Positions 22,947 to 62,952 of a DNA stretch of 64,000 nt are shown piece after piece. Below the pieces are notes generated by a model that saw only the letters and a list, made by a program, of their open reading frames with translations, searched no databases and had not been told where the DNA came from. A program made the position numbers and the translations under genes. The stretch spans positions 1 to 64,000 of the forward strand of contig NZ_BCQI01000007.1 of assembly GCF_001544355.1 (NCBI RefSeq), in the 5' to 3' direction. Numbering within the stretch: the stretch's first letter is position 1; each line of letters begins with the position of its first letter. The DNA comes from Alicyclobacillus acidiphilus NBRC 100859. Lineage in GTDB: Bacteria > Bacillota > Bacilli > Alicyclobacillales > Alicyclobacillaceae.

Positions 22947-24641
22947 TTATTGATGCGATTTGTCGATCCAGATGGCCTGCAATGGATCCATCAACGTCGG
23001 GTTGATGTAGAAGCCATGTACCCAAGGTTGCACCGCGTACACGAATTCGCCGTAATACAGCGGGACCCATGGAGCGTCTTTCATGATTTGCACAGTCGCC
23101 TTGTCGTACAACTGAATGCGTTGCGCTTGGTTGGTGTCGGTTTCGGCTTCGTTCAACCACGAGTCGACTTGTTTGTTGTCGTACATGCTCGCATTGTTGC
23201 CCGACGCAATTTCGTTCGAGTTGAACAACGTGTTCAAGAAGTCGGAAGCGTCCGGGAAGTCCTGAATCCATGCCAATTGAAACGCCTGAGCCTTGCCTTT
23301 CTCCGTTAACGTGAGGAAGGAGTTCCAATCCATTGAGTCGATCTTGACGTGGAAACCGACCGCGTTCATATCGGATTGGATTTGGTCGTCGATCTTTTCC
23401 GCATCAGCTGTGTTCTCCGAATACAGGGTGACGTTGAGATCCTTGACGCCGGATTGCTTCAGTAATGCTTTCGCCTTGGCCGGATTGTACTTGTAATCCA
23501 CACTCGCCGGCAAATTCTTCATGTAGCCGTCGATGCCCGGTGGCAACGGCTGATCCGCAACCATAAATCTATTGTTCAGTAGTTGAACGATCCGTTGCTT
23601 GTTGATGGCGTACTCGACGGCCTGGCGCACCTTCACGTTGTTGAAAGGCGCCAATTTGTTATTCAGGCCGAGATAATACGTCGCGTTGGACGGTGCTTTG
23701 ATAATGTCTTTCTTCAACGTCGGACTGTTCAGGAACGTCGGATAGACAGATGACGGAATGCCTGCGAACAAGTCAGCAATAAGGGCCGTTTGGCCGTCTT
23801 CGAAATGAAGCGCGTCGACCTGATCGTTCTTATTCACGTTGATGGTGATTTGGTCCAAATACGGCAGACGGTTTCCGTACTTGTCCTTCATGAAGTAGTC
23901 CGGATTTTTCTTCAGTACCACTTGGGTTCCCGTGTACTTGCTCAGTTCAAACGGGCCTGTCCCCATCGCGGTCTGCGAATCGAACGCCTTGTTGCCGACT
24001 TTGTCGATAAACGCTTGATCCACTGCGGAGAAGAACGGCATCGCAAGCACTTGCAGGAAAAACGGCTCCGGCTTGGTCAACTTGATTTGCAAGGTGTACT
24101 TGCCAATCGCCTTGATGCCCGACACCGTCTTGGCTTTGCCCTTGTTGTAGGCCGTCGAGCCGACAACAATCGGATCCAGGAAACCTTCACCAGGCGAACC
24201 GACCGACGGGCTCAAGACGCGTTGGAATTCGTCGACGAACGACTGCGCGGTTACCGGATCCCCGTTCCAGAACTTCACACCAGGGCGAATCTGGAACGTG
24301 TACGTCTTGCCATCCTTCGATACCTTCCAGGATGACGCCAAGTCGCCTGTCAACTGAGACGTGGTACCCTTGTACGTGACCAATGGATTGTACATTTGGT
24401 CCACAATTTCTCCCGAGATGGTGTCGTACGCAAGCGCTGGATCTAGGTCTTTGAAGTCCCCATCTGTGTCCAGCGTAATACTGCCACCGGGCGTCGGCTT
24501 GCCAGAACTGACGGCATCGGCGTTACCGGCGACCGTCGCCTTCGGCGTCGACGCATGTGTCGTGATTCCGACAGCGAGGAGGCCAAGCGCAGCGATGGAT
24601 GCGCCAACCGCCGTTCCTGTCTTCCATAGTTTACGTGCCAT
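22947..24641 (-). CDS. Oligopeptide-type solute-binding protein family 5
   Basis: A 564-residue extracellular binding protein, last gene of the second Opp set. ATG 24641 follows GGGGGA. Residues 1-31 are a Sec signal peptide (THA-S cleavage region) without a lipobox cysteine. The mature protein has the family-5 marks YTFQIRPGVKFWNGDPVTAQ, MGTGPFELSKYTG, VRQAVEYAINKQRIV and a late YDKATVQIMKDAPWVPLYY, as in OppA/DppE proteins. A dipeptide or oligopeptide ligand is most likely. A 218-base gap separates it from the permease gene upstream, so it may have its own promoter. Confidence 0.92.
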   Translation of the reverse strand: MARKLWKTGTAVGASIAALGLLAVGITTHASTPKATVAGNADAVSSGKPTPGGSITLDTDGDFKDLDPALAYDTISGEIVDQMYNPLVTYKGTTSQLTGDLASSWKVSKDGKTYTFQIRPGVKFWNGDPVTAQSFVDEFQRVLSPSVGSPGEGFLDPIVVGSTAYNKGKAKTVSGIKAIGKYTLQIKLTKPEPFFLQVLAMPFFSAVDQAFIDKVGNKAFDSQTAMGTGPFELSKYTGTQVVLKKNPDYFMKDKYGNRLPYLDQITINVNKNDQVDALHFEDGQTALIADLFAGIPSSVYPTFLNSPTLKKDIIKAPSNATYYLGLNNKLAPFNNVKVRQAVEYAINKQRIVQLLNNRFMVADQPLPPGIDGYMKNLPASVDYKYNPAKAKALLKQSGVKDLNVTLYSENTADAEKIDDQIQSDMNAVGFHVKIDSMDWNSFLTLTEKGKAQAFQLAWIQDFPDASDFLNTLFNSNEIASGNNASMYDNKQVDSWLNEAETDTNQAQRIQLYDKATVQIMKDAPWVPLYYGEFVYAVQPWVHGFYINPTLMDPLQAIWIDKSHQ

Positions 24642-55563: not shown

Positions 55564-56325
55564 TCAGAAACCATATATCGTCATGCCGCCGTCGACGAAC
55601 AGCGTTTGCCCCGTCACGTAGGACGCGGCGTCGGAGGCCAAAAACACCATCGGTCCAATCAACTCGTCCAGTTCGCCGACCCTGCCAAGCGGCGTGCGCG
55701 CCAGCACCTCGGCGAGATAGTCCGGCTGCTGCAACAGCCCTGCCGTGAGCGGGGTTCGGAAGTACCACGGTCCAATACCGTTGACGCGTACGTTGTGCTT
55801 GCCCCACTCCAAGGCAAGGACCTTCGTCATCTGAATCACGCCCGCCTTCGCCGACGCGTACGCGACGCCCGTTCGAAGCGCGACATGGCCGCCGACGGAC
55901 GAGACGTTGATGATGCTGCCCTTGCCGCGCTCGACCATGTGCCGTCCAAAGGCTTGCGCGACAAAAAAGGCGCCACGCAAATCCGTATCCATCACCGTCT
56001 GCCACTCCTCCGGCGTGACATTGAGCGCCCGCGATCGGATGTTCATTCCCGCGTTGTTGACCAAGACATCCACCGGACCGTCGCGCAGGACGGCTTGGGC
56101 GAGATCGCCAATCGCCTCCGTGTCGCGCAAGTCGCACGTGTGCACGTCGACCCGCCGCTCAGGGAGATGGCGCCCCAGCGATGCGGCCACCTGCCCTAAG
56201 GCGTCGCGATCGCGCCCCAAGAGGACCACATCGGCACCACTCGCCGCCGCACCGACAGCCAAAGCCGCACCAATGCCACGACTCGCCCCAGTCACCACCA
56301 CGCGCTTGCCTTGCAGGGAAAACAT
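55564..56325 (-). CDS. Short-chain dehydrogenase/reductase
   Basis: A 253-residue classical SDR. NAD(P) loop VTGASRGIG, NNAGMN, catalytic Ser in INVSSVGG, Tyr-Lys in YASAKAG and the end VTGQTLFVDGGMTIYGF. It resembles gluconate 5-dehydrogenase-like SDRs; the substrate is unknown. ATG 56325 lies after GGGAG. An alternative ATG at 56376 behind GGTGG would add 17 residues. It faces the gatD end and is a single gene. Confidence 0.9.
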   Translation of the reverse strand: MFSLQGKRVVVTGASRGIGAALAVGAAASGADVVLLGRDRDALGQVAASLGRHLPERRVDVHTCDLRDTEAIGDLAQAVLRDGPVDVLVNNAGMNIRSRALNVTPEEWQTVMDTDLRGAFFVAQAFGRHMVERGKGSIINVSSVGGHVALRTGVAYASAKAGVIQMTKVLALEWGKHNVRVNGIGPWYFRTPLTAGLLQQPDYLAEVLARTPLGRVGELDELIGPMVFLASDAASYVTGQTLFVDGGMTIYGF

Positions 56326-56469
56326 GCTTGCTCCCGACAACCAGCGCGTATCGATCACGCCTTCATCCGTACTCATCAGCAATCCACCGTTCCTTCATTG
56401 CAGTATTCGCATGGGTAAACAAATTGGACGACGCTGGGCGGCCGACGGCAAGCTGGACGACGGGCGGCG

Positions 56470-56660
56470 AATAAGCGGCCGATGGCCGCTTAAGTGTGTC
56501 GAATCGGAAGATTTGCAACGAATAAGCCGCCCGCAGACGCTTAAGCGGCTCCCATCCCCACGTCTCGGGCGTGTCGAAGGCAAATAAGCGTCCTGGAGAC
56601 GCTTATTTGCCTTCCGATCCGACCATTTCAACGAAATAAGCGGCTGAGGGACGCTTATTT
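56470..56660. repeat. Array of four hairpins with a shared AATAAGC core
   Basis: Four inverted repeats: 56470-56494 (AAGCGGCC/GGCCGCTT), 56521-56550 (AAGC/GCTT, with GCCGC/GCGGC inside), 56576-56614 (a perfect 17-base stem GAAGGCAAATAAGCGTC with a five-base loop) and 56634-56660 (AAATAAGCG/CGCTTATTT). All contain AATAAGC or its complement at the same place in the stem. They fill the 400-base gap between the thioesterase and SDR genes and look like REP-type elements. Two copies of CTGCCTCCAGC follow just after. Confidence 0.8.
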
Positions 56661-56734
56661 GTCCGCGCCTGCCTCCAGCCTGCCTCCAGCCTGGCCTACC
56701 CACCAGTCCGGAGCGCACCTCTCGCCGACCGCGG

Positions 56735-57130
56735 TCAGCGCTTCTTCACAACCGCCACCGTGCAGCGTGATACACACACCAGCCTGTCGCGATCGTCCGT
56801 GATTCTCACGTCCCAGACCATCGTTGTGGCGCCGCGATGAAGCGGTGTCGCAATCGCGGTGACGGTCCCTTCGCGGACGGAACGGACGTGGTTCGCGTTG
56901 ATTTCGATACCCACCGCCGCCTGATGTTCGGCATCCAGGTTCAGCATGGACGCCAGGCTTGCCGCCGATTCGGCAAGGGCGACACTCGCGCCGCCGTGCA
57001 ACAGCCCCATCGGCTGGTGCGTTCGGTGATCCACGGGCATGGTCATAACCACGAGATCGCGCGATGATTCGACGACCTTCATACCGAGCGTCTCCATCAG
57101 CGTTCCCGCCAACATATCCTGAAGTTCCAT
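56735..57130 (-). CDS. PaaI/YbgC-type hotdog thioesterase
   Basis: A 131-residue hotdog-fold thioesterase: HQPMGLLHGGASVALAES with the HGG motif and catalytic acidic residue of the helix, then EINANHVRSVREGTV. The size and motif fit acyl-CoA thioesterases such as MenI/YdiI or PaaI. Whether it acts in menaquinone synthesis or aromatic breakdown cannot be told. It follows thrB on the same strand by 25 bases but has no evident pathway link with it. Confidence 0.9.
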   Translation of the reverse strand: MELQDMLAGTLMETLGMKVVESSRDLVVMTMPVDHRTHQPMGLLHGGASVALAESAASLASMLNLDAEHQAAVGIEINANHVRSVREGTVTAIATPLHRGATTMVWDVRITDDRDRLVCVSRCTVAVVKKR

Positions 57131-61657: not shown

Positions 61658-62952
61658 GCTGTGCCCTCCTCCCTCGTCAAGAAATAGATGGTGCTGGGTT
61701 CAATTTCCTGCGCGACCTGGACGAGATCATCTTTGCCGACTCGGCGCAGGTCTTGAATCAATTGGTCGACGTCCCTCGCCGCCCCGCTCAATACGCCGGT
61801 ATAGTGCCAATTCGCAAGTGCCGCAGGGCCGTCGGACATCAGCGTGTACTGATTTTCGAGCGCTCGCACCGTGAACTCCATTTCGGCGTCGGAGATCTTG
61901 CCGGCGCGTATCTCTTCGAGCTGCTGTTCGACGATGTCGACCGCTTTGTCGTAGTTGTCTGGACTGATTCCGGTCATCACGGCCAGCACACCCGTCATCA
62001 AATCGAGATGGGACCACACGGTGTAAGCCAGCGAGTGTTTCTCGCGCACGTTCAAGAACAGCTTGGAATGCGTGAATCCACCAAATACGCCATTGAGCAT
62101 CAGGAGTGCCGGGTAGCGGTCGTCCCCGAAGCCGATCCCGGTGCGGTACGCGATGTCGAGCTGAGCCTGCGCCACATCCTGGCGCTCCGTCACTTTTTGG
62201 AACGACCGGCTGGACTTTCGCGGCAGAACTTCCGCACCGGACGGGGAATCCCGCCGGACCGCTTGCGACTTCGGCAAGATGCCGCGGAGCTTTGCCAACA
62301 GCTTGTCGGCCGTCTCTGTGAGATCCGCGTAAGGTCCGACCAAATAAGCGTGGATCTCACTCGTCTCGAGCAGTGCCAGATAGACGTCAAACAAGGTCGC
62401 AGGCGTCAACTGCGGCAAATCGTCGAGATAGCCGAGCCTGGGCAACGCGGCAGGCGTATTTTCCGCCACGTGGGCGAGGCAGCGCTGCAACGCGTAACTC
62501 ATCTTGTCGTCCCGTGCCGCTTCAATGCGCCGGCGGTGCAAGTCGATCTCCTGGGCCACCGCGGGGGCGCTGAAGCAGCCTTTGTCAGCGGTGTGATCGA
62601 ACAGGACATCGCAGGCCAGATCGATGGCCCGGTCGACCACCGACTCTTCGGTCAGGCCTGTGACGTCCGGAATGCTGGCGTCAACCTGCAAGATGTGCTT
62701 GCCGCCGCGTTTGCCCAGCGAGCTGCGGACAAGCGTCCCGTACAAATCGTCGGCCGCGATCGTCAGCAGCGTCGTCGAAGGGCGCCCGTCAGTCCCGTTC
62801 ATCCACATATGCGGCAACAACGCGGTCGCTGTCACGCGATCCCGCCGGATTGGCGTATGCAGCCTGATACTGAATTCCTTCGTACGATAATTGCTGTGTC
62901 GAAGCATATGTACATGGACGCGACCGTCCGATATCGTTTCAAACGAATCCAT
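61654..62952 (-). CDS. ymfF: M16 peptidase-like protein, YmfF type (non-catalytic subunit)
   Basis: A 432-residue M16 fold protein lacking HxxEH at the zinc position; it has LPHMWMNGTDG instead. It keeps the C-terminal Arg/Tyr pair region in KLFLNVREKHSLAYTVWS. Together with YmfH it should form an active heterodimer like other bacterial M16B pairs. ATG 62952 follows GGAGGG. The pair with a downstream MFS-type gene on the same strand recalls the B. subtilis ymfD-ymfF-ymfH region. Confidence 0.93.
   Translation of the reverse strand: MDSFETISDGRVHVHMLRHSNYRTKEFSIRLHTPIRRDRVTATALLPHMWMNGTDGRPSTTLLTIAADDLYGTLVRSSLGKRGGKHILQVDASIPDVTGLTEESVVDRAIDLACDVLFDHTADKGCFSAPAVAQEIDLHRRRIEAARDDKMSYALQRCLAHVAENTPAALPRLGYLDDLPQLTPATLFDVYLALLETSEIHAYLVGPYADLTETADKLLAKLRGILPKSQAVRRDSPSGAEVLPRKSSRSFQKVTERQDVAQAQLDIAYRTGIGFGDDRYPALLMLNGVFGGFTHSKLFLNVREKHSLAYTVWSHLDLMTGVLAVMTGISPDNYDKAVDIVEQQLEEIRAGKISDAEMEFTVRALENQYTLMSDGPAALANWHYTGVLSGAARDVDQLIQDLRRVGKDDLVQVAQEIEPSTIYFLTREEGTA

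Follow-up and report, generated by a model that had tools for sequence, protein, structure and literature searches.

A dispersed four-palindrome intergenic repeat with a 51-62-51 rhythm in Alicyclobacillus acidiphilus and scattered other Bacilli

In Alicyclobacillus acidiphilus NBRC 100859 the gap between a gene for an SDR-family oxidoreductase and one for a hotdog-fold thioesterase holds four hairpins built on the same few bases, and the question it raises is whether such a cluster serves its own locus, belongs to a family of mobile palindromes or is an array of sites for a protein. In the window, meaning the whole stretch of 64,000 nucleotides that was analysed, a preliminary description had pointed at 56470-56660 to four hairpins with a common AATAAGC, one of them with a perfect 17-base stem. 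Both statements hold for 56470-56659, as AATAAGC starts at 56470, 56521, 56583 and 56635, each time with a downstream GCTTA arm, and the perfect 17-bp stem pairs 56576-56592 with 56598-56614 across a loop of 5 bases. The gap and its borders are laid out as follows.

55564 to 56325, reverse strand: flanking gene for an SDR-family oxidoreductase (PF13561, 1.3e-62; start codon assumed at 56325)
56420 to 56469, no strand assigned: left flank, with an imperfect 21-bp direct repeat (76%) and a G-rich tract
56468 to 56661, forward strand: complete four-palindrome element, positions 1-193 of covariance model R1, the best-scoring copy at 208.8 bits and itself one of the 10 sequences from which R1 was built
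56472 to 56492, no strand assigned: palindrome 1, TAAGC-N11-GCTTA
56497 to 56503, forward strand: TGTCGAA, within the best conserved stretch of spacer 1 (from the non-redundant consensus and the 114-copy alignment)
56523 to 56543, no strand assigned: palindrome 2, its dyad 51 bp past that of palindrome 1
56585 to 56605, no strand assigned: palindrome 3, its dyad 62 bp past that of palindrome 2, the stem extending to the perfect 17 bp
56637 to 56657, no strand assigned: palindrome 4, its dyad 52 bp past that of palindrome 3
56667 to 56693, no strand assigned: 11-bp minisatellite GCCTGCCTCCA, 2.5 copies, adjoining palindrome 4
56735 to 57130, reverse strand: flanking gene for a hotdog-fold (4HBT) thioesterase (PF03061, 4.2e-19; TIGR00369)

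AATAAGC-N3..30-GCTTA matches 6 times in the 64-kb window, at 4 places of which two match on both strands, and always within this cluster, against a mean of 0.03 and a maximum of 1 in shuffles, and AATAAGCG likewise has 6 matches, five in the cluster and one at 62343, against a shuffle mean of 1.18. The region folds much more strongly than its shuffles both as DNA (z -7.5) and as RNA (z -7.0). What the four palindromes have in common is a fixed core of 21 bp, TAAGC-N11-GCTTA, and they differ in how far pairing extends outside it; dyad-to-dyad spacing in this copy is 51, 62 and 52 bp. At 1085-1281 of the window, distant from the element, there is also a 15-bp tandem repeat of 13 copies.

The cluster is one copy of a dispersed repeat of about 193 bp, an identification that is well supported. 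In the source genome, a draft of 3,864,093 bases (3.86 Mb) in 165 contigs that is 99.96% complete, the count of palindromes suggested in the preliminary description gave 103 sites for AATAAGC-N3..30-GCTTATT and 1 for the reversed control, with N11 between the arms in 50 of 50 sites among the matches listed, and a pattern joining palindrome 1 to the spacer motif gave 112 and a control value of 0. R1, a covariance model from an alignment (A1) of ten copies, matched all of the best 150 candidates in a search of this genome with both strands counted. Its scan of 99 fetched sources produced 250 matches on both strands, from which 114 places of full model length were kept on the better-scoring strand; full-length four-palindrome units in the genome thus number at least 114. 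Twelve places were set aside, nine being cut by the end of a contig or locus (L141, L169, L172, L175 at 760, L176, and L135, L100, L152 and L159 at 1), two divergent or shortened (L175 at 482, L167 at 317) and one weak (L102 at 1097). Kept units measure 192-195 bp, too short to accommodate a gene, and no larger relative was seen among the best 150 candidates. The units occupy about 94 separate places, 20 of which hold two tandem units about 280-380 bp apart, with 92-99% identity between the two in 17 of the 20 pairs. In many contigs of the draft the end falls in or beside an element (C86:4-196, C20:14-206, C61:19590-19782 and C1:196220-196411 among them); the repeat, with its tandem copies, is thus a probable cause of breaks in the assembly, and the number of copies may in truth be higher. 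At C40:17096-17289 and 23390-23583, 6 kb from each other, are two copies of 96% identity, possibly the result of recent duplication or transposition. Near another copy lies a c-di-GMP-I riboswitch (L009:2046-2135, 77.8 bits).

The repeat is intergenic: 111 of the 114 units lie outside coding segments predicted by our own codon-usage gene scan, against which 94% of random 193-bp windows drawn from the 64-kb window overlap such a segment. For the 82 of the 114 copies with gene neighbours available on both sides, 24 are same-sense, 19 opposite, 23 convergent and 16 divergent, with no evident bias. A dispersed structured RNA gene, or an element of transcripts, would account for the RNA folding (that z of -7.0) and for an RNAalifold consensus of 10 copies with two-sided changes at 9 of 48 pairs; the covariation term is, however, only -0.38 kcal/mol, R1 scores on both strands, neighbouring genes give no evident orientation bias and, at the window copy, 56300-56800 has no promoter or terminator match, nor any intrinsic terminator in the sense of a GC-rich stem followed by a T run, the window copy being the one scanned. 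No structured RNA of Rfam 15 matches over its gathering score inside the element at six loci and in window 56300-56800, with E up to 1, and the Rfam matches that overlap elements reached 19.5, 18.4, 17.4 and 7.4 bits where the gathering scores are 35, 70, 97 and 55. An RNA is on these grounds improbable.

It is the geometry of the repeat, more than its sequence, that is constant. Dyads are spaced at exactly 51-62-51 in 78 of the 114 units and every step is within 1 bp of this in all 114, while median pairwise identity among them is 65%. After removal of 21 near-identical copies, the mean frequency of the commonest base over the remaining 93 units is 0.955 in the half-sites and 0.72 in the 11-bp interiors; for spacers 1, 2 and 3 it is 0.80, 0.65 and 0.72, taken over spacers of modal length (88, 77 and 81 of the 93 units). 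The half-sites are not invariant. In the 372 palindromes of these units both are exact in 226, one in 132 and neither in 14, and much of this departure comes from palindromes 3 and 4, in which GCCTA is common as the right half-site. Outside the palindromes conservation is highest at GTGTCGAATCG in spacer 1, where the window copy and others have TGTCGAA, which equals the core of the Spo0A box; by eye it is not conserved in the spacers of a carrier from another genus (G310, below), so the likeness is possibly a coincidence.

Conserved half-sites, spacing held to one base, divergent spacers and the lack of evident orientation bias together suggest an array for a dimeric DNA-binding protein, and a putative array of that kind, which the preliminary description had named as an alternative, is what the fixed spacing fits best, keeping in mind that the imperfect conservation of the half-sites counts against it. 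With dyad centres at 0, 51, 113 and 164, the four sites are in phase at 10.18-10.34 bp per turn (coherence 0.995 at 10.26). Since 7.6% of random layouts are phased equally well, and coherence falls to 0.66 at 10.5 bp per turn, helical phasing is a hint and not proof.

The rhythm is shared, with other spacers, by further genera of the family, by a single locus from another family of the order, by 113-bp arrays of Paenibacillus plantiphilus and by the one or two copies of yet another family. The pattern TAAGC-N11-GCTTA-N30-TAAGC, which requires a single palindrome followed at 51 bp by a half-site and makes no demand of a 62-bp step, matches 6 of 398 genomes of the class and 7 of 59 genomes of the order, the source genome included in both counts. 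A looser pattern is far above its control in G310 (88 and 2), P. plantiphilus (G410; 80 and 3) and G344 (35 and 3), and near control level in G170 (3 and 3) and G180 (4 and 1). Inspection of individual loci gave steps of 51-62-51 in G019, 51-62 in G417, 62-51 in G418 and 51-61-50 in G038, alternating 51 and 62 steps in P. plantiphilus, and 51-62-51 and 61-51 at two loci of G170. At the G180 locus (L183) four palindromes are at similar positions by eye, the automatic scoring having found only a 112-bp step. In G310 a step of 61-63 bp is present in 17 of 20 fetched stretches, many of which also have the 51-bp step, and one locus has longer arrays with steps of 112-113 bp. G344 (L300, L301 and L302) departs from this, its arrays of up to nine palindromes in a row keeping to a constant step of 52 bp and showing no 62-bp step, which counts against the reading preferred below. 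By eye, spacer sequences differ among carrier genomes. When the model was applied to the 12 genome-contig matches of the loose pattern, one from P. plantiphilus (L068) had three model matches 113 bp apart, two others had E below 0.01 (L067, 0.00039; L069, 0.0073), and the remainder had E of at least 0.68 or no model match. Family f28 has few copies, in 2 of 4 genomes.

Some candidate carriers were rejected. G250, of family f23, is one of the 6 genomes of the class matched above, but its locus (L184) is without the 51/62 rhythm; in that family the loose pattern occurs in 38 of 39 genomes, mostly at or near the reversed-control level, and so is not taken as evidence, a few genomes, G290 and G372 among them, being above that level. 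The sole viral contig matching the looser pattern (L078) scored 9.2 bits with the model, E 0.44, and was taken as chance; at the sensitivity used, two palindromes at 51 or 62 bp were found in no viral contig. A plasmid or phage as vehicle was likewise dismissed, as blastn searches of plasmid and of phage collections were negative at the sensitivity used.

Regularly spaced palindromes of about 25 bp, up to nine in a row at 52 bp in G344, could recall a CRISPR remnant, with palindromic repeats separated by spacers of 26-37 bp. The spacers of the element, however, are alike among dispersed copies instead of unique, and so do not form a CRISPR array, and the units are at about 94 separate genomic places; this origin is scarcely credible.

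In pattern searches the relatives of A. acidiphilus are without the element. The pattern of palindrome plus spacer is present in 0 of 40 relatives, 14 of which are congeneric, so that all 14 congeneric genomes lack the element by pattern search, and a search of 15 relatives with R1 gave nothing in 14, with two weak matches (best E 2.5e-4) in G029, which is of the same order. Palindrome pairs of any core sought de novo at 49-53, 60-64 and 111-115 bp were absent from 200 kb each of G003 and G001, in a scan that recovers the element loci of the source genome, recovers those of G310 weakly and can miss imperfect palindromes. A comparison of the gap with related genomes, which the preliminary description had called for, bears this out at the window site, where three relatives keep the order SDR-thioesterase-thrB without the element, in a gap of about 126 bp where A. 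acidiphilus has about 412 bp. The second locus compared is L089, where the gap in G003, again without the element, is about 77 bp as against about 354 bp; relatives thus have syntenic gaps shorter by about 280 bp at each of the 2 loci. The preliminary description had reasoned that repeats confined to this gap and fully conserved among relatives would indicate a local regulatory role; what is found is dispersed copies, no pattern match in the 40 relatives and orthologous gaps without the element.

This patchy distribution also bears on whether the repeat is a host site for organising or regulating the chromosome, such as a nucleoid-protein or partition-like array, kept for its function and not as a selfish element. 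The preservation of half-sites and spacing across genera and families despite divergent spacers is consistent with such a site, as is an orthologous single copy in two species of genus g7 (G417 and G418), beside the same M29 peptidase gene in both; by eye that copy is no better conserved than its own downstream flank, which counts against the reading preferred below. Neighbour genes differ among the low-copy loci of G170, G180 and G038. That the pattern occurs in 0 of 14 congeneric genomes, that 52 of 59 genomes of the order are without the architecture pattern and that neighbouring genes show no evident orientation bias all speak against a host site, which we regard as unlikely.

The flanks of the element have a character of their own. 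Of the single copies, 59 have 640 bp or more to each side; in these a tandem repeat with a period of 4-19 lies within 60 bp on the left of 41, on the right of 22 and on either side of 47, whereas one 60-bp distal window about 0.5 kb leftward, used as control, holds a tandem repeat in 1 of 59. By eye the minisatellite unit is specific to each copy. G makes up 49% of the 60 bp to the left, and C 49% of the 60 bp to the right; on either side, therefore, it is the G-rich strand that enters the element in the 5' to 3' direction. In G310 a tandem repeat is found within 175 bp at 15 of 18 element loci, and more than 400 bp away at 6 of 18. For 110 copies with 30-bp flanks no direct repeat that could be a target-site duplication rises above shuffled flanks, though minisatellites could hide one, and complementarity between the flanks of these 110 is not above shuffles either. 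CGATCGCG occurs within 250 bp to the right of 44 of the 114 copies of the source genome, for instance at L106, L117 and L134, and some right flanks have the module GCGATCGCGCCGCC followed by a hairpin like GTAACGGAACTTTTGTCCGTTAC, so the composite may exceed 193 bp.

At two loci of G310 (L273:1152-2740 and L290:1500-3088) a palindrome is interrupted by the same 1.6-kb IS4-family insertion sequence, which by eye has duplicated about 8 bp of its target; palindromes may be its preferred target. Because two copies of the four-palindrome element lie 2147 bp apart at these loci it was considered as a mobiliser, and it was rejected as an insertion into the element. Near-identical copies in G310 lie within longer repeats of about 98% identity, judged by eye to be probably the ends of rRNA operons, and for that reason were not used as evidence of mobility.

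Within the palindromes, covariation between interior positions of the same hairpin is weak, with z against shuffles of 3.7, 2.6, 2.1 and 1.0 for the four hairpins in 91 of the non-redundant copies. That there is any counts against a pure duplex-binding site, which would not need it; arms taken from different hairpins reach z of 2.1-3.3, so pairing within a strand does not by itself explain the conservation. The main rival to a nucleoprotein array is that the element acts as single-stranded DNA, its one-strand hairpins being the substrate of a putative single-strand transposase or nuclease, as REP and REPIN sequences are for RAYTs. The strong DNA folding (that z of -7.5), the covariation within 3 of the 4 hairpins and the lack of target duplications are all in keeping with this, movement of the IS200/IS605 type not being known to leave any. 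The covariation is nevertheless weak, and in G310 positions 6 and 16 pair in only 27% of 45 unique palindromes; single-strand hairpins would not be expected to require palindromes placed with a precision of one bp across spacers of differing sequence; and Y1_Tnp (PF01797, the family searched) has 0 matches in the source genome, G310 and G344. We regard it as possible but doubtful.

The preliminary description had likened the cluster to REP or similar mobile palindromes, often spread by a RAYT-type transposase. Dispersal is indeed REP-like, with the palindrome counts and the at least 114 units given above, but these are not solo REPs, as the palindromes come as four at fixed spacing, and the expectation of a RAYT finds no support, PF01797 having no match in the source genome. 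PF01797 is present in G170 and G180, which have one or two element copies each, and more generally in 6 of the 15 genomes of the set and 5 of 14 controls. Within 12 bp outside the palindromes GTAG is present at 19 and CGTC at 83 of 456; in shuffles the corresponding numbers, also of 456, are 51 and 78. Without a Y1 transposase in the source genome or G310, and with tags not above chance, the element is not a RAYT-borne REP as defined; it lacks the RAYT-specific features tested, and membership of the RAYT-REP family is not claimed. It is placed with the REP/BIME-like kind because both are dispersed intergenic palindromes.

Among known repeats, BOX elements are likewise modular, foldable and intergenic, and as in BOX the internal repetition of the element is variable in some carriers. 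The modules of BOX elements are not known to be related in sequence to the four-palindrome element, nor is a 51/62 rhythm known in them. The size and copy number of BOX in Streptococcus pneumoniae are given in PMC2267715. The resemblance to REP, BIME and REPIN sequences (PMC3733652, PMC2267715) lies in high copy number, intergenic location, short clustered palindromes and families restricted to species, and palindromes of about 25 bp in many intergenic copies are within the 20-40 bp by which REPs are recognised; the difference lies in palindromes that stand in fours at 51-62-51 within 1 bp, and in minisatellite flanks. MITEs, and repeats of the type of bcr1, tabulated for the Bacillus cereus group in PMC2267715, are also dispersed non-coding units of 100-300 bp in Bacilli, but in the element target-site duplication and partner transposase went undetected and internal palindromes dominate over terminal repeats. 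The same source has unnamed intergenic stem-loop families of Bacillus, Bhal-1 (74 bp) and Bant-1 (72 bp), the size of which, in a comparison by size and description only, would fit two palindromes 51 bp apart. No published description of the four-palindrome 51-62-51 architecture was recognised in the literature searched.

The reading that we prefer, with about even confidence, is a non-autonomous intergenic DNA element whose phased palindromes bind a putative protein. The element, four palindromes each with 5-bp half-sites TAAGC and GCTTA 11 bp apart in the 51-62-51 rhythm, would most likely act at the level of DNA. The protein, encoded by the host or by a mobile element, is envisaged as recognising the half-sites in dimeric form along a single face of the helix; the four occupied sites might then be gathered in one complex, which would either drive the spread of the element in trans or explain its retention. 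Patchy distribution together with high copy number argues for spread, and the low identity between copies suggests that most of it is old; the lack of target duplications and the predominance of old copies (the median identity of 65%) count against present-day mobility. We infer further that the palindromes probably stall a polymerase in replication or repair synthesis, and that stalling would lead to slippage and so to tandem amplification of flanking DNA, and sometimes of the whole unit, with copy-specific minisatellites as the outcome.

Retention of spacing to one base while the intervening sequence turns over, within a genome and between groups, is the signature of a molecular ruler, and as such predicts a single trans-acting factor. 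That the ruler is conserved across Bacilli is the part likely to surprise a specialist. There is also a practical side, as the 52-bp arrays could pass for CRISPRs in the output of a repeat finder. Tentatively, and with rather less than even confidence, these sequences may represent a class of bacterial DNA element not described before, present across Bacilli and set apart by its geometry instead of its sequence, in which helically phased TAAGC-N11-GCTTA dyads at 51 and 62 bp (a period of 113 bp) would be read by a conserved putative protein, with more than 100 copies in scattered species and with flanks where minisatellites are seeded. The association with minisatellites, examined at 59 single copies with full flanks within one genome, also offers a natural replicated system for the birth of tandem repeats provoked by palindromes in bacteria.
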